9,270 nucleotides of DNA from the NCBI GenBank assembly GCA_016935885.1, contig JAFGQA010000226.1:1-9270 (forward strand). Reading direction: 5' to 3'. Both the position numbers and the translations under genes were made by a program. This DNA is from Phycisphaerae bacterium. GTDB lineage: Bacteria > Planctomycetota > Phycisphaerae > UBA1845 > UTPLA1. The notes beneath the pieces were generated by a model. That model was not told the origin of the DNA, did no database searches, and was given only the letters and a program-made list of their open reading frames with translations. Positions 2,093-9,240 of the stretch are shown piece by piece (the first letter of the stretch is position 1; each line of letters begins with the position of its first letter).

Positions 2093-4057
2093 TCAGTGCA
2101 GCATACCGCCGGCCGCCTCGGTGAACAACCGGGCGAAATGTCGATCGATTGCGTGCAGTTGTGTCGATGCCGGCTTGCCGGTGGCTGCGGCGCTCTCAAC
2201 TGTGTCGACAAGAGCCTCGGTTTGGGCGATCGACCGAGCGCTCGGCCAGACGAACGGAAGTTGCCGCAGCAGGCCGATCTTGACTTGCGCCTGGGCGCGA
2301 CCCCGTTCGCCGGACAGGAACTGGTACAGCCGGGTGACGATCGCGCTGTTGAGGTACGCCAGCAGGTAGGCGTGGCTGATGCCCACCGTGATGGCGGTGT
2401 TCGTGAGGGTGGCGGTGAACAGGGTGTTGTCGGTGTAGTACACCGCTCGTTTCTGAATGCACCTTGCCGCGACGATGTGATCGCCGGTCTGGCGGATCAG
2501 GACGCGCTCCGGCAGGCGATGAACGGCAGGATCGCCCTGCCAGTCCCAATACTCGTCGCGAACGCTGGACCGGCCATTCCCGCGGCGGCCGCGGACGCCT
2601 GGCTCCGGGACGTAATGAACGTCCACCCAACGATACTGCGCGCCGGGCGAGTCCCAGCAAACGGCGTACCGCTCGATCTGACGGCCTTGGATGAGCCGTT
2701 GCAGACCCGGCCGGGTGCGCCGGGCGTAGAATAGCCTGTGCCGGCAATTGCGCGAGTGGATGCCCACATCGGCGATGCGAGCGATTTCATCTAACGTCGT
2801 GAGCGTCCCCACACCTCCTGTACTACTGACGATTGGAACTGTACTACTGACGATTGGAATCTTCGCGTCTCGCGAAGAAGCCTGTGGCACCGGCGTCTCG
2901 CCGGTGGGGTCACGGGCGGGACGCCCGTGACGCAACACCGGTGGGACGCGGACGCCACTGTGTTGCGATGGGCTCTTCGTATCGCAACGGCCCGGGCGAT
3001 CCAACGCGTGCCACAGGGCCGCCGTTTCACATGCCTGCTTCGTGGGTACGAAGATGATGCTTCGTGGCGATTGCGTGAAGAGCGAGTGGCCAACGTGATA
3101 CCGTTGGGCGTGCCGAACGCGACCGCCATTCGATGAAGCCGCCCACTGCCCGTGTCTCGCGTCGACGTACCGCACACGTGCTGCACCGGATTCGGCCTTC
3201 TGCCAAACGAAGAAACACGGGAAGACCTGTCGATTGAATGTGTCCGCCGGCAGCCGGACGATCAGCCGCAGCCGATCTTGCAAGAGGCGCCGGCGCAGGT
3301 CTTCGTAACTTGCCAGCGATAGCCAGGTGTCCGGCACGAGCAGGACGACGTGTCCGCCGGGCCGTACGGTCTCCATGGCCCAGCGAATGAAGAAGGCATA
3401 CAGATCCTCGCTCACGTCAAACTTGCCCCGCCATCGGGCGAATGCTGGCAAGCGCCTCGCATGCCGAACGCCCAGATACGGCGGATTGCCGATGATCAGG
3501 TCGATCGGATGTCGCGGTAGCAGGAGCGGCTCCAGGAGGCTGTCGCCGATGCGATAGTGCGTCTGCAACCACGAAGATGGCACGCGACCCAGCGCCAGTC
3601 GTAGCCGCTGGCCCGCCGCGGGCCGCACTCGTGGGTCCGTGTCGATTGCCCGGATTCGTTGCAGTGCCCGCAAGGGAGCGCAGCGAGGGCGTGGACCCAA
3701 GCGGGACATGGCCTCGATAAGGGCCGCGACGATGACACCGCTGCCGGCGGCCGGTTCGACGATTGTGAGCGATTGGACGTCGCGATCAGAAGTCACCGCC
3801 TTGAGGGCTTCCCGCGCCATCCACCGCGCTGCGATCGGGGGCGTGTTAACACGGCCAATTGCTGGAACGCTGTCTCCCTGAATACCTGGGCGCGCCCAGA
3901 AGGGATTCTCGGCACGCCAGCGTGTCCTGCCATTCAGAACGCTGGCGGACGAGCCGCCGGTGGAGGTGCGAGATCTGCCGATAGTTGCCAGCACGTCATC
4001 CGGCACGGCGAGCGGGTCCATGTCAACTGGCCGATCGGTTGGACACAACGATGCCAT
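2093..4057 (-). CDS. N6-adenine DNA methyltransferase, Eco57I/TaqI-like, with repeat-derived insert
   Basis: This 654-aa protein transfers a methyl group from S-adenosylmethionine to adenine N6 in DNA. Visible motifs are a motif-X-like segment (GRVNTPPIAARWM, about 68-80), AdoMet-binding motif I (EPAAGSG, 101-107) and the catalytic NPPY (191-194). The catalytic domain ends near residue 350. A C-terminal region from about 422 (starting LDEIARIADVGI) matches the TaqI-like target-recognition/specificity part in layout. Between them, about residues 357-417, lies a low-complexity insert encoded by palindromic and tandem repeats. No nuclease motif is evident in the short N-terminus and no restriction gene is adjacent, so this looks like an orphan methyltransferase or a remnant of a restriction-modification system. 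The frame stays open to 4258, but I chose ATG 4057: it lies 5 nt after the upstream gene's stop and avoids a 67-residue, proline-rich extension overlapping that gene. Its ribosome-binding site (AGGG) is weak, so translational coupling is likely. Confidence 0.86.
   Translation of the reverse strand: MASLCPTDRPVDMDPLAVPDDVLATIGRSRTSTGGSSASVLNGRTRWRAENPFWARPGIQGDSVPAIGRVNTPPIAARWMAREALKAVTSDRDVQSLTIVEPAAGSGVIVAALIEAMSRLGPRPRCAPLRALQRIRAIDTDPRVRPAAGQRLRLALGRVPSSWLQTHYRIGDSLLEPLLLPRHPIDLIIGNPPYLGVRHARRLPAFARWRGKFDVSEDLYAFFIRWAMETVRPGGHVVLLVPDTWLSLASYEDLRRRLLQDRLRLIVRLPADTFNRQVFPCFFVWQKAESGAARVRYVDARHGQWAASSNGGRVRHAQRYHVGHSLFTQSPRSIIFVPTKQACETAALWHALDRPGRCDTKSPSQHSGVRVPPVLRHGRPARDPTGETPVPQASSRDAKIPIVSSTVPIVSSTGGVGTLTTLDEIARIADVGIHSRNCRHRLFYARRTRPGLQRLIQGRQIERYAVCWDSPGAQYRWVDVHYVPEPGVRGRRGNGRSSVRDEYWDWQGDPAVHRLPERVLIRQTGDHIVAARCIQKRAVYYTDNTLFTATLTNTAITVGISHAYLLAYLNSAIVTRLYQFLSGERGRAQAQVKIGLLRQLPFVWPSARSIAQTEALVDTVESAAATGKPASTQLHAIDRHFARLFTEAAGGMLH
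2807..2990. repeat. Cluster of palindromic and tandem repeats inside the methyltransferase gene
   Basis: This segment packs several repeats. A 21-nt unit beginning TGTACTACTGACG occurs twice in tandem (2819-2839, 2840-2860) and differs only at the last base. Then come three tight hairpins: CTTCGCG-TCT-CGCGAAG (2861-2877), CACCGGCG-TCT-CGCCGGTG (2888-2906) and a 9-3-9 hairpin with arms TCACGGGCG and CGCCCGTGA (2910-2930). A fourth, with arms GTTGCGAT and ATCGCAAC, is at 2962-2988. The block stays in frame and encodes 'HGRPARDPTGETPVPQ' and a duplicated 'PIVSST'. The CCTGTGGCAC edge at 2881-2890 is identical to the edge of the repeat in mnmA. The outer limits of the insert are my estimate from protein domain boundaries. 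Confidence 0.85.
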
Positions 4058-4062
4058 TTGCC

Positions 4063-4398
4063 CTAATGCGCGTGTTCGTGGGTTTGGCAATGGGGGCACA
4101 GGAACCGGCGTTGTCCCGACTTGGGAAGGCTGTCGCGTGGGAGCGATGAACAAGGATAGCTGTACAAACAACACACGCATTCCACGGTCTTGTCTGCCCT
4201 GAGCTGCTTCGTTGCCCAGCGTGACAGTTCCTTGGGCAAGACCCCGCGGCCCCGACATAGGGGGCAGGCATCGTAGAAACTTCGCAGGATCAACTCGCGA
4301 ATGAACGCCGACCTGTCGGGCACCTTGTTCAACACGTCCGCCAGGTGGTCGTCCACGCGAAATGAGACAACGACGCCCTTGTCTTTTGTTCTGGCCAT
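4063..4398 (-). CDS. Small ribbon-helix-helix-like protein with Cys/His zinc-binding tail
   Basis: This 111-aa protein starts MARTKDKGVVVSFRVDDHL. The short basic beta-like strand (about 8-14) followed by two helices (about 15-42, with RSAFIRELIL) fits a ribbon-helix-helix DNA-binding fold of the CopG/MetJ type. After it come Cys pairs CPLC (45-48), ECVCC (74, 76, 77), Cys83 and CPHC (101-104), then a His-rich end (H107, H109, H111). This suggests one or two bound zinc ions. A DNA-binding regulator, possibly metal- or redox-responsive, is the best inference; I do not recognise a named family. The frame is open up to 4539, but ATG 4398 is preceded by a strong AAAGGAG site with 5-nt spacing, and the longer N-terminus has no domain-like character. 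The methyltransferase begins 5 nt downstream, so the two are probably co-transcribed and the regulator may control it. Confidence 0.72.
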   Translation of the reverse strand: MARTKDKGVVVSFRVDDHLADVLNKVPDRSAFIRELILRSFYDACPLCRGRGVLPKELSRWATKQLRADKTVECVCCLYSYPCSSLPRDSLPKSGQRRFLCPHCQTHEHAH

Positions 4399-4403
4399 CT
4401 TCG

Positions 4404-4410
4404 CTCCTTT
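4404..4410 (-). promoter_or_regulatory. Ribosome binding site for the ribbon-helix-helix gene
   Basis: On the minus strand AAAGGAG lies 5 nt before ATG 4398. This near-consensus Shine-Dalgarno site decides the start in favour of the 111-aa form over longer in-frame starts. Confidence 0.75.
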
Positions 4411-4466
4411 AGGAGGGCGGCGGTGCGCCGCTGTGTATCGCCCCGCAAACTGACCGATTCCGGTTG

Positions 4467-4496
4467 AGTATCTCGCGATAGGATTCGAGGATTCAA
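4467..4496 (-). promoter_or_regulatory. Weak candidate sigma70 promoter for the leftward cluster
   Basis: On the minus strand TTGAAT (4491-4496), an 18-nt spacer and GATACT (4467-4472) form a weak -35/-10 pair about 70 nt upstream of ATG 4398. The -35 match lies inside a copied CTTGAATCCTCGA repeat, so the match may be a by-product of the repeat. Confidence 0.2.
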
Positions 4497-4698
4497 GTAA
4501 GACGGCAGCTGCCACCCGACAGTCTGGAGGATCCACCACGATGCCATAAATCCTGGGTGCTTAAACACTTGAACCCTGACAGTCCGTGGTAAAAGGGAAA
4601 ACAGCGGTTCGGAAACACCGTTCCTGACCGTGACAACCACCGGCTTTGGCGCCGGTGCCGCAGTCTTGCCACGGGCTGCTAAACCCTTGAATCCTCGA
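4485..4698. repeat. Nested inverted-repeat element in the divergent intergenic region
   Basis: The outer arms are an exact 13-mer inverted pair: TCGAGGATTCAAG at 4485-4497 and its reverse complement at 4686-4698. Inside lies a second imperfect pair: AGTCCGTGGTAAAA at 4581-4594 against TCTTGCCACGGGCT near 4664-4677, 11 of 14 matching after reverse complementing. The core (4600-4677) also exists as an inverted copy at 5532-5609. Together these look like a small non-autonomous palindromic element, possibly one inserted into another. Translations in this stretch, such as 'GTGAKAG', are repeat-derived and I do not call them as genes. Bases 4699-4830 show nothing I can support. Confidence 0.7.
4600..4677 (-). 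repeat. 78-nt dispersed repeat, copy A
   Basis: This segment aligns without gaps to the reverse complement of 5532-5609, with 72 of 78 positions identical by eye. It contains AACAGCGGTTCGGAAAC, a GCCGGTGCC-type hairpin arm (ACCGGC, TTTG, GCGCCGGT) and ends GCCACGGGCT. Strand is assigned arbitrarily, opposite to copy B. Confidence 0.9.
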
Positions 4699-4831
4699 AG
4701 CCTCCTCCAAGAGACCGAGAATCGGTCCCTTTGGGTCATATCGACTCATATCTCAAGTGCTACGATATCGCGATGTGGCCCACAGGGCAAAACGGCTCGG
4801 CGGTGATGAATCTGGAGAACTGGACATCGGG

Positions 4832-4859
4832 TTGTCAGGTGCAGGATCGGCGTTACACT
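4832..4859 (+). promoter_or_regulatory. Candidate sigma70 promoter of the orphan membrane protein gene
   Basis: TTGTCA (4832-4837), a 16-nt spacer and TACACT (4854-4859) form a plausible -35/-10 pair about 90 nt upstream of ATG 4947. This is the best match in the intergenic region for the rightward gene. It implies a leader of about 80 nt in which I see no clear structure. Confidence 0.4.
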
Positions 4860-4946
4860 GTGCCCGATGGCCACACGGCTGGACCCGGGTCAGCGGCCGG
4901 CTGCTATGTCGAGCACCGGCGGAACCATCAATAGGCGACCCCGGCA

Positions 4947-5471
4947 ATGCAAAACGCCCAACACGATCCGAACGCGGCACACGATGATGATTCGATTGCC
5001 TTTTATGTCGAGGCGCAGGGTCTACGGCGGAAGTTGATCTTCTGGCGCCGCGCGGCCTGGCTTCTCCTCGGCATCGCCCTCCTCATCTCGGTTGTTGTTT
5101 GGCAACGGACGACCGTCCGTTGCCGGGAGTGCCGACGCGCCCTTCAACACTATGCCGAGATGGCCCACACCCACCATCTGGATCAGGAACCCGCGGAGGT
5201 CCTGGAATCGCAATGGCAGAATTTTGCCAAGGGCCCGGCTGATCTCTCGGCGGCGCACTACGCGCTGATCGTCCAGAACTGGCTGCAAACGCCGCCGCCT
5301 GGTGAATCGTTGCCGCTGGCCATCTGTCGCGACTCGCACGTGGGCTTCTTTACACGCAGCCGGCACGTTCTGTTTCGTGACGACGCGGGAAGGTACACGA
5401 TCAAAACGTTAACCGAAGATGAGGCTTCTCCTATCCTCGCTCAGATCAGGCAGGATGATCGCTCGCCTTAG
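4947..5471 (+). CDS. Orphan single-pass membrane protein, function unknown
   Basis: This 174-aa protein is not one I recognise. It has a short acidic N-terminus (residues 1-20), a basic stretch (RRKLIFWRR, 27-35), one strong membrane helix (about 37-52) and a soluble domain of about 120 residues. The positive-inside rule puts the N-terminus in the cytoplasm and the C-terminal domain outside the membrane. Directly after the helix is CREC (Cys59 and Cys62), which could form a disulfide or bind a metal or haem-free cofactor; the motif is not CXXCH, so it is not a c-type haem site. The soluble part has a recognisable end (FRDDAGRYTIKTLT, 143-156). It is the only rightward gene here and is flanked by two inverted copies of a 78-nt repeat. 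Its codon use and uninterrupted frame support a real gene; the ribosome-binding site (AGGCGA) is poor. No role can be assigned. Confidence 0.68.
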   Translation: MQNAQHDPNAAHDDDSIAFYVEAQGLRRKLIFWRRAAWLLLGIALLISVVVWQRTTVRCRECRRALQHYAEMAHTHHLDQEPAEVLESQWQNFAKGPADLSAAHYALIVQNWLQTPPPGESLPLAICRDSHVGFFTRSRHVLFRDDAGRYTIKTLTEDEASPILAQIRQDDRSP

Positions 5472-5483
5472 CCCGGATGATGC

Positions 5484-5722
5484 ATCACGCAGAGACGCAG
5501 AGGCGCAGAGAGGTAATGAACAGAGGCTTAGAGCCCGTGGCAAAACTGTGGCACCGGCGCCAAAGCCGGTGGTTTGGACGGTCAGGAACGGCGTTTCCGA
5601 ACCGCTGTTAGCTGAATGACCGTTGGGCGAGGCGTTTGCACACTGTCGAACGAAAAACCCGGTGATTCGTTGCTAACCGTCTTGCAGACAACACTCTGCG
5701 ACCTCCGCTGGCTCTGCGTGAT
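5484..5722. repeat. Candidate MITE-like element bounded by CACGCAGAG inverted repeats
   Basis: The left arm at 5484-5510 begins ATCACGCAGAGACGCAGAGG and consists of three degenerate ACGCAGAG units. The right arm at 5694-5722 is its imperfect reverse complement (ending GCTCTGCGTGAT). They enclose about 180 nt that includes the 78-nt repeat copy B. No transposase frame is present, so any mobility would depend on an enzyme elsewhere. The stretch 5472-5808 holds no gene I can support. Its last part (5770-5805) has short GCCGTCAGCTATCA-like sequence that also looks repeat-like. Confidence 0.6.
5532..5609 (+). repeat. 78-nt dispersed repeat, copy B
   Basis: This is the inverted partner of 4600-4677. 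It starts AGCCCGTGGCAAAACTGTGG and ends CCGCTGTT. It carries the hairpin arms ACCGGCGC and GCCGGT and the GTGGCACC block shared in general style with the repeats at 2881, 6818 and 9152. It begins 61 nt after the stop of the orphan membrane protein gene. Confidence 0.9.
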
Positions 5723-5808
5723 GAATAATCCAGCTTCTTAACGCGCCTCGGCATCTCCGCCGAGTTCGAGCGTTCAGCCGTCAGCTATCAACTATCGGCA
5801 CTCAGTGC

Positions 5809-7047
5809 CTAGGGCCCCTCGATCCAGCCTCCGCCCAGCACCTCGTCTCCGCGGTAGCACACGATCGCCTGGCCCGGCGTGACGGCCAGTTGTGGCTCGT
5901 CGAATCGCACGCACATGCGGCTGCCAGGCAGTGGCAGGACGTCGGCTGGGGCGGCCTTGTGCTGGTAACGGATCTGCACGTCCGCCCGGATCGGCTCCGT
6001 CGGCACTTCGCACAGCCAACGCACGCCGGAGGCCGTCGCCGTGGGAGACAACAGCGCATCGCGCGGCCCCACCGTTACCGTGTCCGTCGCGGGGTCCAGA
6101 CTAACGACGTAAACGGGGCTGCCAACGGCCACGCCCAGGCCGCGACGCTGGCCAATCGTGAAGTGGGGCAGACCATCGTGTTCGCCCAGCACGCGACCGT
6201 CGACATGTCGGATCGGGCCACGACGAAACGTATCCGGCCGGCGCGACCGCACGACGCTCGTGTAGTCGCCGTTTGGCACAAAGCAGATGTCCTGGGACTC
6301 GGGCTTGGCATGCTGCGGAAGGCCGAATCGCCGGGCATGGGCGCGAACCTCCTCCTTGGTCATTTCGCCCAAAGGGAACAGCGTTCGACGCAGGACGCTC
6401 GGGTCTACGCTGAATAGCGCGTAAGACTGGTCCTTGGCCAGGCACCGTGCCCGGAGAAGCCTCGACCGCTTGCCACCTGTCTCGATACGCGCGTAGTGAC
6501 CTGTCGCGATCAGATTCGCCCCAGCCGTGTCCGCATACGCCACGAGGCCGCCGAACTTGATCCACTGGTTGCACAGCACGCAGGGATTTGGCGTCCTGGC
6601 CGCGGCATACTCGTCGGCGAAGTGGTCTATCAGCCGAGAGAAATCCCGTGCGAAGTCCAGCACGTAGAACGGGATGCCCAACTCGTCGGCGACCCTGCGG
6701 GCGTCCGTGGCTGCCGCCGCCGAACAGCAGGCTTGGCGACGACCCTCCGACGCGGGCGTTGGATTGGCCGGTTCCGGCGGCGCGACACTCTCGTCACCAA
6801 GATGGCATCCCGCGGCCCCTGTGGCACGGGCGTCTCGCCCGTGACGACACCGCCGAGACGGCGGTGCCACAGGTCCACACCGCCGAGACGGCGGTGCCAC
6901 GAGGGCATCGGGACGCACTCCAGAGCGCATGAACACTCCCGTGACGTGGTAGCCCTGTTCCTTCAGCAGACAGGCGGCAACGCTGCTGTCCACGCCGCCG
7001 CTCATGGCAACGAGGATTTTCTTCCCGCGCTTCATCTCCTCAAGCAT
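5809..7047 (-). CDS. mnmA: tRNA-specific 2-thiouridylase with repeat-encoded insertion
   Basis: MnmA activates U34 of Lys, Glu and Gln tRNAs with ATP and installs sulfur relayed from a cysteine desulfurase. This 412-aa protein shows the PP-loop SGGVDSS (16-22), the catalytic region NPCVLCN (154-160; Cys159 is the nucleophile equivalent), ATGHYAR (181-187), KDQSY (205-209), the second catalytic Cys255 in SQDICF, and GQRRGLG (299-305) leading into the C-terminal beta-barrel. Typical family members have about 350-370 residues. The excess lies at about residues 42-103, between GVFMRSG and the ACCS..DARRVA segment, and is encoded by palindromic repeats that keep the frame open. All catalytic residues are present, so the enzyme is probably functional. 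ATG 7047 is 5 nt after the fdhD stop; ATG 7035 (MKRGKK) is an alternative, with GAGGAG directly abutting it. It ends the four-gene operon. Confidence 0.93.
   Translation of the reverse strand: MLEEMKRGKKILVAMSGGVDSSVAACLLKEQGYHVTGVFMRSGVRPDALVAPPSRRCGPVAPPSRRCRHGRDARATGAAGCHLGDESVAPPEPANPTPASEGRRQACCSAAAATDARRVADELGIPFYVLDFARDFSRLIDHFADEYAAARTPNPCVLCNQWIKFGGLVAYADTAGANLIATGHYARIETGGKRSRLLRARCLAKDQSYALFSVDPSVLRRTLFPLGEMTKEEVRAHARRFGLPQHAKPESQDICFVPNGDYTSVVRSRRPDTFRRGPIRHVDGRVLGEHDGLPHFTIGQRRGLGVAVGSPVYVVSLDPATDTVTVGPRDALLSPTATASGVRWLCEVPTEPIRADVQIRYQHKAAPADVLPLPGSRMCVRFDEPQLAVTPGQAIVCYRGDEVLGGGWIEGP
6818..6900. repeat. Palindromic repeat element inserted in frame in mnmA
   Basis: The element starts with CCTGTGGCAC (6818-6827) and has the exact inverted match GTGCCACAGG at 6864-6873. 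Internal hairpins are CACGGGCG-TCT-CGCCCGTG (6825-6843) and CACCGCCG-AGA-CGGCGGTG (6849-6867). A 24-nt unit beginning ACACCGCCGAGACGG is repeated with a 30-nt period (6847-6870 and 6877-6900). Thirty is a multiple of three, so the MnmA frame is kept and the protein shows a 10-residue repeat containing VAPPSRRC, then RHGRDARATG. Its CCTGTGGCAC edge is the same as the one at 2881-2890. Confidence 0.9.
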
Positions 7048-7052
7048 AGGAT

Positions 7053-7904
7053 TCAGGGTGTCAAGGATTCAAGGCCTTGAATCCTTCGAGGGTGGGTATA
7101 GATCGTCGCGCGATCGTCGCGCACAAAGCCGCAAAGGGTGATGTTGCAGCGTTCGGCCGCCTGGATCGCGAGCGAGGATGGGGCCGATACCGCCGCGATC
7201 AATTCGATGCCGGCCCGGGCACACTTGGCGACCAGTTCCAGGCTCACGCGGCCGGATAGCATGACGCCACGTTGCTGCAAAGACTGCTCGTTCAAGAGGC
7301 ACTTGCCGATGGATTTGTCTAGCGCGTTGTGCCGCCCGATGTCCTCGCCGGTGGCAATGATCTCACCGTCCGCCGAGAAGATGGCCGCAGCGTGTGTCGC
7401 GCCCGTCCGCGTGAAGAGGGCTTGCCTGCTGCGGGCATCCCGGCCCACCTGACAGAGGACGAAGTTCGGTACGCGCAACGTGCTCTTGGCGAGGGTCAGA
7501 CCTGCCATGAGCTTGTCAATGTTTCGACTGCCACACAACCCGCATGAACTCGTTACAATCAGGCTTCGGCCCGATGGGACCTGCTCCAGGCTGTCCAATT
7601 GCATGGCAATGATCGGGGGATCGCCTCGCCGGGAGAGCTTGATGACGTCATCCACGCCCGAAATCATCCCTTCGGAAAAAACAAACCCGATGGCCAGGGC
7701 AACGGCGTCACAGGGGGTACACATCACGGCAAAACTGCCAGCGCCTTCGACCATGATGGTGAGGAGCGTTTCCACCACTACTTCGCAATGATCCCGCGCC
7801 GGCGGGGCGCCGCTCGCGGAGACGCGCAGCGGATCAACGGCGCGAACCCATTCGCTCGTGTCGTCGGCAGCGTCTTCGAAGGTAAACGCGCGCTTGGCCT
7901 TCAC
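7053..7904 (-). CDS. fdhD: Formate dehydrogenase accessory sulfurtransferase
   Basis: FdhD takes sulfur from the cysteine desulfurase IscS and transfers it to the molybdenum (bis-MGD) cofactor before its insertion into formate dehydrogenase, acting in the cytoplasm. This 283-aa protein has the usual length and the diagnostic motifs: SSCGLCG with the sulfur-carrying Cys121 and Cys124, GATHAAAIF (168-176), GEDIGRHNALDK (186-197) and LSGRVSLELV (216-225). An additional CXXC (Cys62, Cys65) sits where the family has a conserved TP-loop. It starts at GTG 7904, overlapping the stop of the upstream gene by 4 nt (GTGA), which indicates translational coupling. Its last codons contain a perfect 24-nt palindrome. 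No formate dehydrogenase structural gene is in the window, so the client enzyme is encoded elsewhere. Confidence 0.94.
   Translation of the reverse strand: MKAKRAFTFEDAADDTSEWVRAVDPLRVSASGAPPARDHCEVVVETLLTIMVEGAGSFAVMCTPCDAVALAIGFVFSEGMISGVDDVIKLSRRGDPPIIAMQLDSLEQVPSGRSLIVTSSCGLCGSRNIDKLMAGLTLAKSTLRVPNFVLCQVGRDARSRQALFTRTGATHAAAIFSADGEIIATGEDIGRHNALDKSIGKCLLNEQSLQQRGVMLSGRVSLELVAKCARAGIELIAAVSAPSSLAIQAAERCNITLCGFVRDDRATIYTHPRRIQGLESLTP
7063..7086. repeat. Perfect 24-nt palindrome at the fdhD/mnmA junction
   Basis: AAGGATTCAAGG is followed at once by its exact reverse complement, over the last codons of fdhD and 16 nt upstream of the mnmA start codon. The half-site resembles the CTTGAATCCTCGA repeats at 4485-4497 and 4686-4698. 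It could be an mRNA hairpin controlling mnmA expression, a protein-binding site, or another dispersed repeat. Confidence 0.85.
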
Positions 7905-8707
7905 TCCGGCGGATCCCCCCTACCCAATGGCGTGGTAACGCACTTGTCCGCAAAGGCCGCTACCTCCGCGTTCACGCGCTTGAAGGTGTCGAGCAAACGC
8001 CGGCCCTCGCGAGAAAGGCTGGACTTCCCGCCGCCCGCGCCACCCGGCTGGGCAACGAGCAACTGCTTGCCCAGGTGCTTCTCGGCGCCCTTGATCAGGT
8101 TCCACGCGTGGCGATAGCTGACGTGTCCCACCTTGGCCGCCTCACGCAACGTCCCAAGGCGATCCACGTTCTCCAACAGGCGGGCCAACCCAACGCCAAA
8201 GGCGTGCTCCTCGCCAACGACGAACCATACCTTCGTTCGCACCGCCGGTCCCGGCTTCGTCAAGAAGCGCTTCTGCTCGACGAGTAGGTCGCAAACGGCC
8301 TCACGCAGCATCCTATCCGCCAACTTGGCTCGGAGGACCTTCCTCCAACTGCGAATGGTGGCCCCGGGACCGACCCGCACGTGCGCCCGTTCGCGCAGAA
8401 CGTTCCTATCACTCCGAATGTCCTTGCTGTGAGGCGCGCTGTCCACGAAGATGATGATGTCCCCTTGTCCTCTCCGGGCAGCGTGATTGCATTCCAAGAC
8501 GATGTGTTCGTGTTCGTTGCCGCAGCGTTTGAGGAACGATTCCACCTCCGAGCGCGTCCGGAAGTAGTTCGTCGGCTTGCCGGCCTGCGGTTCACCGCAG
8601 CCGTGCTTGGCATAGACCGCTCCCGGAAGCAGGTCACACAGTCGCTGAGCGAGGTAAGTCTTCCCTACGCCTCGGCATGCGCCGCAGATGACCCACGTCG
8701 TCGTCAT
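7901..8707 (-). CDS. P-loop (MobB-like) / ModE-type HTH fusion protein
   Basis: This 268-aa protein has two recognisable parts. The N-terminal 165 residues resemble a P-loop nucleotide-binding protein: a Walker A of the [AG]xxxxGKT type (ACRGVGKT, 10-17), a hydrophobic strand IIIFVDS (84-90), and an early KHG (34-36) reminiscent of MobB, the GTP-binding partner in molybdopterin guanine dinucleotide synthesis. Residues about 170-250 match the winged-helix DNA-binding domain of ModE: GTLREAAKVGHVSYRHAW, then GGAGGGKSSLSREGRRLL, closely parallel to the ModE helix-turn-helix and its glycine-rich wing. There is no molybdate-binding Mop/TOBE domain after it. The inference is a regulator or cofactor-handling protein whose DNA binding is tied to nucleotide or cofactor binding. 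It overlaps both neighbours by 4 nt (ATGA upstream, GTGA downstream), and the fdhD neighbour supports a molybdenum-enzyme role. The MobB similarity is weaker evidence than the ModE similarity. Confidence 0.8.
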   Translation of the reverse strand: MTTTWVICGACRGVGKTYLAQRLCDLLPGAVYAKHGCGEPQAGKPTNYFRTRSEVESFLKRCGNEHEHIVLECNHAARRGQGDIIIFVDSAPHSKDIRSDRNVLRERAHVRVGPGATIRSWRKVLRAKLADRMLREAVCDLLVEQKRFLTKPGPAVRTKVWFVVGEEHAFGVGLARLLENVDRLGTLREAAKVGHVSYRHAWNLIKGAEKHLGKQLLVAQPGGAGGGKSSLSREGRRLLDTFKRVNAEVAAFADKCVTTPLGRGDPPE

Positions 8708-8997
8708 TCAAAACATCCCAACTCGCACGCGCGGACCTTGATGTCAAGTATGTTAAGCAACGCACTCATCTTGCGGCCGCCTACTCCCAGTTTCTCGGCC
8801 ACCGCCCGAGCCGTCGGGCAAGCAATCCATCCACCAACTTGAAGGGTGGTCAGATTGCAGGGTAACCGCTCCTCCGATTCGACGGCGCGCACCGTGGCGT
8901 CGCTGTCCGAGACGACCTCGATAGATAACCCCTCATCGCTGACGAAAGCAGCCACCTGCTCCCGTAACGCCTCGGGAACACTCAAGCTGGCGCTCAT
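8704..8997 (-). CDS. 97-aa conserved-looking protein, first gene of the fdhD operon
   Basis: I cannot assign this 97-aa soluble protein to a named family. Residues 1-50 are acidic (DEGLSIEVVSDSDATVRAVESEE). Residues 58-90 read like a helix-turn-helix-sized domain (PTARAVAEKLGVGGRKMSALLNILDIKVR), suggesting DNA or protein binding. The C-terminus is CELGCF (Cys91, Cys95), with Cys47 and Cys60 earlier, so metal binding or thiol chemistry is possible. It starts at ATG 8997 with a strong GAGGAG site and its stop overlaps the next gene's start by 4 nt, so it is translated together with the P-loop/ModE fusion and fdhD. A role in regulating or maturing a molybdenum or tungsten enzyme is inferred only from context. 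Confidence 0.78.
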   Translation of the reverse strand: MSASLSVPEALREQVAAFVSDEGLSIEVVSDSDATVRAVESEERLPCNLTTLQVGGWIACPTARAVAEKLGVGGRKMSALLNILDIKVRACELGCFE

Positions 8998-9002
8998 GGG
9001 AA

Positions 9003-9008
9003 CTCCTC
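9003..9008 (-). promoter_or_regulatory. Ribosome binding site of the first fdhD-operon gene
   Basis: GAGGAG on the minus strand lies 5 nt before ATG 8997. It confirms this start rather than a longer frame. Confidence 0.7.
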
Positions 9009-9090
9009 GCCCTCAGGCACCCTGCTGATCCGTCGCCTCCGGCGGTCCCACGGTGGATTACCGGACCGGACCGTGACGCGGTGCGCGCAG

Positions 9091-9119
9091 ATTATATCCC
9101 CAGCAGGAGCAGATGAGAA
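9091..9119 (-). promoter_or_regulatory. Sigma70-like promoter of the fdhD operon
   Basis: On the minus strand TTCTCA (9114-9119), a 17-nt spacer and a consensus TATAAT (9091-9096) precede the four-gene operon. Transcription would begin near 9084 and leave a GC-rich leader of about 85 nt. An AT-rich hexamer is striking in this GC-rich DNA. No clear ModE-box dyad is visible over it. Confidence 0.6.
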
Positions 9120-9151
9120 ATCGGCCTCAATGGGTCCATGACAGTTTGGGC

Positions 9152-9240
9152 GGGTGCCACTGGCAGCTTGCCTGCCAGTGCGTATGCCCCATGCGTCCAC
9201 CAGAGACACCACACGGGCGGACAAGCCGCCCGTGGCACCC
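9152..9240. repeat. Complete 89-nt palindromic repeat element with terminal inverted repeats
   Basis: The ends are GGGTGCCAC (9152-9160) and its exact reverse complement GTGGCACCC (9232-9240). Inside are two 9-5-9 hairpins: CACTGGCAG-CTTGC-CTGCCAGTG (9158-9180) and CACGGGCGG-ACAAG-CCGCCCGTG (9212-9234). This is the cleanest example in the window of the design also seen at 2881-2930 and 6818-6873: a GTGCCAC edge with GC-rich hairpins next to it. It lies upstream of the fdhD-operon promoter. Bases 9241-9270 show nothing I can support. Confidence 0.88.

Follow-up and report, generated by a model that had tools for sequence, protein, structure and literature searches.

GTGG-tagged REP hairpins in a Phycisphaerae contig and REP-RAYT cassettes in frame within essential proteins of other genomes

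Repetitive extragenic palindromic elements (REPs), the REP-associated tyrosine transposases (RAYTs) and REPs that lie within genes are known already. In the GTAG-tagged REPs of Di Nocera et al. (2013; PMC3733652), a 4-nt tag is joined to a hairpin, most stems are 6-9 bp, and the elements form dimers and occur in many copies (here and below, statements taken from papers refer to the consulted sections of those papers). The majority of the GTAG-20 elements of Opitutus terrae carry the tag GTGG, and this species is the richest in intragenic GTAG repeats (PMC3733652). Here we analyze a 9270-bp stretch of DNA (GC 63%) from a Phycisphaerae bacterium (contig JAFGQA010000226.1), hereafter the window. 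We conclude that its hairpins are very probably RAYT-moved GTGG-tagged REPs, single or in the dimers called REPINs (REP doublets forming hairpins), of a family found in Planctomycetota and Verrucomicrobiota.

The likeness to GTAG-20, drawn from its description and not from stem sequence, lies in the tag and hairpin, the head-to-head dimers, the high copy number and the intragenic copies; the present family differs in spanning two phyla and in having in-frame RAYT cassettes. As PMC3733652 describes GTGG-tagged REPs, the element class is already known, and it is well founded to regard the window hairpins as a new occurrence of that class and in-frame REPtrons (REP-RAYT-REP units) in essential proteins as a surprising extension. 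The RAYTs reported below share with those of PMC8266576 and PMC6006769 the HUH and tyrosine nuclease and the position of the gene between inverted REPs. Those papers treat RAYTs as separate genes, whereas here they lie inside host open reading frames (ORFs); PMC6006769 set aside a small number of proteins whose unexpected length it put down to gene fusion or annotation error. No report of in-frame RAYTs in host genes or synthetases was found among open-licence PMC papers, with preprints outside the scope of the search, and the consulted sections of PMC4853749 (Thiomargarita) describe mobile elements in genes and hold nothing on in-frame RAYTs. Automatic database names such as alanyl-tRNA synthetase/REP element-mobilizing transposase RayT do exist.

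Perfect hairpins with arms of 8-10 bp stand at 2888-2906, 2909-2931, 6825-6843, 6848-6866, 6878-6896, 9158-9180 and 9212-9234. The window has 22 rows of hairpins whose arms are 8 bp or longer, compared to 0-5 in each of 20 first-order Markov sequences; nested arms included, the 22 rows represent 12 sites, five of which fall outside the hairpin family. The GC-rich hairpins that an earlier reading of the sequence alone (the original prediction) had named at these loci are real and exceed chance. The main REP unit is 23 nt long and consists of the tag GTGG and an 8-bp hairpin with the loop TCT or TCC. Its consensus is GTGG, directly followed by CACNGGCN-TCY-N'GCCN'GTG, and one arm in the window reads CACCGCCG. 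The tag GTGG, a degenerate form already on record, stands directly 5′ of a 19-nt hairpin, and the strict tag GTAG is lacking. What had been described as a 7-nt edge, GTGGCAC/GTGCCAC, is in fact this 4-nt tag placed directly before a hairpin that starts with CAC; the copy at 9152-9240 has the tag GTGC. GTGGCAC and GTGCCAC each occur four times in the window against about one expected for each, and one of these eight sites (at 3008) consists of native methyltransferase codons, its peptide AALWHALDRP aligning with AALWQALSRR of homologue P0243. The predicted loop length of 3-5 nt likewise separates into 3 nt for the main type and 5 nt, with 9-bp arms, for the GTGC variant at 9152-9240. An Rfam search of the window gave no matches, a result that is neutral as to an RNA-level role. 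The copies and their host regions are as follows.

2831-2992, minus strand: in-frame insert of the methyltransferase gene (ORF 2093-4258), approximate bounds, about 54 codons
2860-2878, no strand assigned: neighbouring hairpin TCTTCGCG-TCT-CGCGAAGA; the stretch encodes SSRDAKIPIVSST
2884-2906, plus strand: REP copy inside the methyltransferase gene, GTGG (2884-2887) and CACCGGCG-TCT-CGCCGGTG
2909-2931, minus strand: second hairpin of the pair, with arms of 10 bp and a TCC loop on the minus strand, outer tag degenerate
5809-7047, minus strand: mnmA (tRNA 2-thiouridylase), host of in-frame REP copies; the insert encodes VAPPSRRCGPVAPPSRRCRHGRDARATG
6821-6870, no strand assigned: head-to-head REP dimer in the layout of a REPIN or bacterial interspersed mosaic element (BIME), GTGG-CACGGGCG-TCT-CGCCCGTG, spacer ACGA, CACCGCCG-AGA-CGGCGGTG-CCAC
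6878-6900, minus strand: third REP copy in mnmA, hairpin 6878-6896 and CCAC 6897-6900
9154-9180, plus strand: intergenic variant REP with tag GTGC, CACTGGCAG-CTTGC-CTGCCAGTG
9212-9238, minus strand: inverted partner of the GTGC variant, CACGGGCGG-ACAAG-CCGCCCGTG, then GCAC

An inverted REP pair with outward tags, the arrangement that defines a BIME or REPIN, is found at 6821-6870 and, with the variant tag, at 9154-9238. The copy at 6878-6900 is a direct repeat of the right half of the 6821-6870 dimer, offset by 30 bp.

The elements occupy both genes and intergenic DNA, as first described: those at 2884-2931 and 6821-6900 lie within genes and that at 9154-9238 is intergenic. Pfam identifies the host of 6821-6900 as MnmA and that of 2884-2931 as an Eco57I/TaqI_C-type N6 methyltransferase, and both inserts are translated through in frame. 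Empty sites, which the original prediction had called for, exist for the two intragenic copies; they come from homologues, not from close strains. The REP-encoded motifs VAPPSRRCGPVAPPSRRCRHGRDARATG occur in the window MnmA and in none of 119 other homologues (motif scan of 120 listed out of 7999 matched), at a site that is a loop of variable length within the family. In an alignment of 14 close homologues the methyltransferase insert is missing in 11, and the remaining three carry different inserts at its position (nine weak matches, P0257-P0265, were left out of this alignment). The insert peptide recurs in an unrelated Phycisphaerae glycosyltransferase (P0260) over 30 residues with two differences, including SSRDAKIPIVSST. 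The named close homologues of both proteins are from Phycisphaerae, Phycisphaerales or Planctomycetota, which would by itself point to Phycisphaerae as the probable source of the window. In a second genome (G380, L094) a GTGG REP lies in mnmA at a different site.

Some further features of these two loops were seen. The methyltransferase homologues P0255 and P0256 carry other inserts, with GWAPPT and GWAMPK, at the same site, which suggests an insertion-prone loop. Beside the window's methyltransferase insert, the 21-mer CTGTACTACTGACGATTGGAA forms a tandem pair (2818-2859) and encodes IVSSTVPIVSST. The MnmA homologue P0032 has GAGFQPGAD in the loop that holds the MnmA insert of the window, which may be a REP of a different stem type.

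To search other genomes we used the pattern GTGGCACNGGCNNNNNGCCNGTG, in which two pair positions were left free, in place of a covariance model. It was applied to 392 genomes from the phylum to which G007 belongs (the L018 genome, Planctomycetota) and to 194 from that of G014 (L033, Verrucomicrobia/Verrucomicrobiota), and was present in 43 and 22 of them, respectively. Copy numbers reach 111 in Planctomycetota (G179) and 162 in Verrucomicrobiota (G503), with many positive genomes holding one or a few copies; a reversed control pattern gave a single match each in 4/392 and 2/194 genomes. The expectation of a high-copy repeat thus holds for some Planctomycetota and Verrucomicrobiota, the scan having covered genomes other than the window's own. 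The pattern was found in none of 15 further genomes reached through MnmA relatives, which are distant (mostly about 43% identity) and provided the way into the phylum samples.

The predicted covariation of the arms was borne out in an independent set of 45 matches at 40 loci. The two free pairs are Watson-Crick in 43/45 and 38/45 matches, above all of 2000 shuffles (means 22.8 and 15.0, maxima 32 and 24), and 35/45 have the loop TCT or TCC. Stops are absent from all six frames in 43 of the 45 matches and in none of them once GTAG is substituted by script. Seventeen of the 45 fall within ORFs of 250 aa or more that leave 40 aa on either side of the element, and two of these 17 interrupt a Pfam family, UvrD (L209) and the MnmA of G380 (L094), a low and conservative count. 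A match at L081 lacks the usual loop, and the L087 element, considered as an ispF insertion, seems to lie upstream of ispF and not inside it.

The original prediction had also asked for a Y1/HUH transposase gene flanked by the same hairpins, and such genes exist in other genomes. Outward GTGG hairpins stand on both sides of a RAYT in G187 (L150, CACGGGCG on both) and in G331 (L141, CACGGGCG and GACGGGCG, with one base changed on one side). Among 35 distinct RAYT loci (44 entries minus nine duplicates), 15 have outward-tagged hairpins on both sides, six have GTGG on both sides and three (L141, L150, L162) have the window stem type on both sides; this was an eye count that allowed six tags and one mismatch, without a shuffled control. 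The remaining flanking hairpins have other stems or the tag GTAG. A RAYT group was found in 26/43 GTGG-positive genomes compared to 60/349 others (Fisher p 5e-9, with kinship ignored and the overlap counted by eye). The L150 RAYT has a single PDB sequence match, the REP hairpin-bound RAYT structure 4er8.

In L141 the complete cassette lies in frame within a 1354-aa valyl-tRNA synthetase ORF. Pfam places Y1_Tnp and host domains in a single open frame in AlaS (G082, G062), ValS (G331, G380, G315), LeuS (G337), PurH (G179), a DinG-type helicase (G154), FabA/FabZ-type proteins (L163, L176, L178, L185), an FAD/OYE protein (G278), a Ham1-type protein (G404), MoeA (G172) and several DNA methylases. 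Across the 25 RAYT-bearing ORFs scanned, Y1_Tnp falls below the Pfam cut-off in five (P0122, L178, L236, L237, L246), and no Hint/intein family was found. The fused alaS encodes the sole AlaS match in G082 and in G062. Of the four AlaS fusions followed at the DNA level, those of G133 and G260 (L165, L170, L221, L225) are interrupted in the draft assembly by frame changes or a stop, through either draft error or decay. Several candidates are doubtful: L239 (MoeA), with its RAYT N-terminal to the host, may be a plain end-to-end fusion, L244 has a transposase domain alone and no host domain, and the 919-aa frame of L156 appeared spurious by eye. ORF length by itself is a poor sign of embedding (L156, L244, L087).

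A wider search took the RAYT segment of an AlaS fusion, a query that favours embedded relatives, to 5.8 billion proteins, with candidates limited to about 640-2040 aa. There were 994 candidate proteins at E ≤1e-3, and host labels were assigned by us from the Pfam columns for the 120 of them listed and the L141 protein (n=121): class Ia synthetases 31, ISP-type methylases 22, AlaS 11, N4/N6 methylases 10, DinG 9, DUF1156 methylases 7, other N6 methylases 6, NadE 6 and others 19. In 108/121, each side of the RAYT is flanked by 100 residues or more (eye count). REP-like peptides adjoin the RAYT upstream in 23, downstream in 22 and on both sides in nine of these proteins; with so few, most flanks would be worn or derive from another stem family. 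Other types of REP peptide, SAGFQPA, AGKMPA and GVPPAAVRD repeats, are seen beside embedded RAYTs (flanks of L185, L177 and L164), and by sequence several stem families seem to share the in-frame RAYT habit.

Both HUH histidines and the tyrosine are retained in 153/153 aligned RAYT domains, which were drawn from best matches and so are biased to conserved ones. In an AlphaFold2 model of the embedded domain (predicted local distance difference test, pLDDT, 85), the first-ranked Foldseek match is again 4er8 (E 2.3e-8, TM 0.51/0.64), and as modelled the domain has the predicted TnpA-REP fold. A model of an entire AlaS fusion (8 rows) reached pLDDT 47 and was not used. Taken from the sequences, the existence of in-frame RAYT cassettes in essential proteins is well supported, and activity and benefit are inferred.

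The AlaS guest sits between VRVLxMG and FSxELCGGTH. Of 12 loci from other genomes, ten were readable at this site (L230 and L231 were left out because a wrong frame had been picked for them), and all ten are guest-free, with a stretch of 55-66 aa compared to 288-309 aa when filled. In L222 a short GAGVPP stretch at the guest site looks like a remnant, the filled stretch of L162 has GTGG and CCAC within a few bases of its two edges, and P0219 has its guest at a different AlaS site. ValS guests follow RLVNWD in 16/23 rows (site 1) or lie in the SDQWYVKV-WCISRQ interval (site 2; G331, G315, G380), and four rows, probably LeuS, are unplaced. FabZ has a single site in ten loci (by eye; four Pfam-checked).

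A maximum-likelihood tree was built from 153 RAYT domains, including 13 standalone ones. Host labels cluster on it, with 46 changes (minimum 23) compared to a shuffled mean of 110.9 and 0/200 shuffles as low. The label ValS takes in P0207, P0218, P0222 and P0236, which contain the LeuS editing domain but lack ValS anchors, and so means class Ia synthetase. Starred branches force at least three changes for class Ia, at least two for AlaS, at least three for DinG, at least eight for ISP-type methylases, and one each for FabZ and NadE. On short branches, the AlaS guest P0219 nests among guests of ValS and NadE. We read this pattern as suggesting long residence in one host gene, broken by occasional jumps. 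FabZ-embedded RAYTs contain no stops, and their ratio of nonsynonymous to synonymous differences (pN/pS) is 0.19-0.46 over 45 pairs, with pS near saturation; median pN/pS is 0.14 for the FabZ part compared to 0.34 for the RAYT.

Based on these observations, the REPs most likely move as single-stranded DNA that is cut and pasted by the RAYT (TnpA-REP), an HUH/tyrosine nuclease that would recognize the tag and hairpin. Copies that keep the frame would survive within genes, mnmA and the methyltransferase gene being the cases in the window. GTGG, unlike the classical GTAG, is stop-free on both strands, so copies of compatible length can be tolerated in genes. In other genomes the whole REPtron appears to be carried in frame in essential proteins, as an apparently unspliced guest domain. 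The mobilizing enzyme of the window's own copies would be a RAYT, and RAYTs may be active, and REPs mobile, at present. On balance we favour a scheme in which REP-RAYT-REP cassettes enter essential and restriction-modification genes in frame, persist as unspliced and catalytically intact guests, are inherited with the host gene, occasionally jump in frame to another one and spread stop-free REPs, like those of the window, in trans. The original observation is partly confirmed, and its REP/BIME-like interpretation is supported by the high copy number in other genomes, the empty sites in homologues and the RAYT genes flanked by the same hairpins.

Several results weigh against this interpretation. 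The window holds no RAYT, and the RAYT and copy-number evidence all comes from other genomes. A RAYT query at E 1e-8 has no match in 17/43 GTGG-positive genomes, and the pattern occurs within about 1.5 kb of none of 30 PF01797 loci fetched. Stops are present in 2/6 frames of 2881-2934 and 1/6 of 6818-6900 (0/6 of 9152-9240), and 59 elements display no target-site preference beside the tag. The E. coli system tolerates no change in its GTAG tag (PMC8266576), and RAYT genes are described as not copying themselves (PMC8049555), so that the jumps proposed here would be an exception. The Marinomonas RAYT system does cleave GTGG-tagged substrates, at CC and, less well, at CA (PMC8266576); taken with the E. 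coli result, this indicates that GTGG fits RAYT chemistry but not that of every RAYT. Selecting RAYTs by PF01797 score was unhelpful, as the relevant ones match that Pfam model weakly.

We considered other origins for the hairpins. Rickettsia palindromic elements (RPEs), of the CGTC superfamily, are also in-frame palindromes within genes, and CGTC repeats apparently have no dedicated transposase (PMC3733652). That the window hairpins are elements of this kind is very unlikely: their tag is GTGG and not the CGTC of those repeats (PMC3733652), and such hairpins flank RAYT genes. The compensated stems would also be expected of immobile RNA-level elements, such as terminators or mRNA stabilizers, whose structure is under selection. 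As two of the three sites are in frame in coding sequence and missing from homologues, one insert recurs in an unrelated gene, and empty sites are found as well, we judge this very unlikely indeed.

The embedded RAYTs, in turn, come largely from metagenome assemblies, and the two AlaS fusions broken in the draft (G133, G260) are what assembly chimeras or misread pseudogenes could look like. This explanation has very little probability given an identical AlaS junction in several genomes and in databases, ten FabZ loci whose stop-free RAYTs display the pN/pS values above, one ValS case on a 3.84-Mb contig, and two genomes in which the sole AlaS match is fused. Inteins with homing endonucleases are likewise nuclease-bearing in-frame guests of conserved proteins at fixed sites, and from this likeness of layout the embedded RAYTs could be taken for inteins or for other elements that remove themselves and restore an intact host protein. 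We find this extremely unlikely, since the scanned ORFs hold no Hint/intein family and the readable ends are REP hairpins. No splicing domain was found in them, and the guest seems to be retained in the protein.

Two questions about REPs bear on these results: how RAYTs persist for long, and how REPs spread without death of the host. For a RAYT in AlaS, ValS or FabZ, a frameshift or stop would cost an essential enzyme, which would explain persistence. Embedding in an essential gene would shield the RAYT from loss and, if the scheme is true, keep it expressed and hard to delete. The stop-free GTGG tag is a possible answer to the second question. Many tRNA ligases and methylases in databases carry a transposase in mid-protein, and at least one survey set such a class aside (PMC6006769).

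The window also contains two further loci that the original prediction had counted as more distant family members.

4600-4677, minus strand: 78-bp module with one loose GTGG hairpin, only distantly related to the REPs
5532-5609, plus strand: the same 78-bp module inverted, 92% complementary to 4600-4677

The module has a single GTGG hairpin, with 7-bp arms and a 6-nt loop, and the pair is another module rather than a set of clean REP family members. A 174-aa ORF without a Pfam match (4947-5471) lies between the two copies. Another repeat, CACGCAGAGACGCAGAG..., has inverted ends at 5475-5494 and 5712-5731 that enclose the module at 5532-5609. Repeats of a third type, AGGATTCGAGGATTCAAG together with the reverse of it, stand at 4480-4497 and 4686-4703, with a similar 10-bp hairpin at 7063-7086. 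Finally, 7901-8707 and 7053-7904 hold an ORF with a LysR-type helix-turn-helix, under the Pfam cut-off, and beside it an FdhD-family gene.

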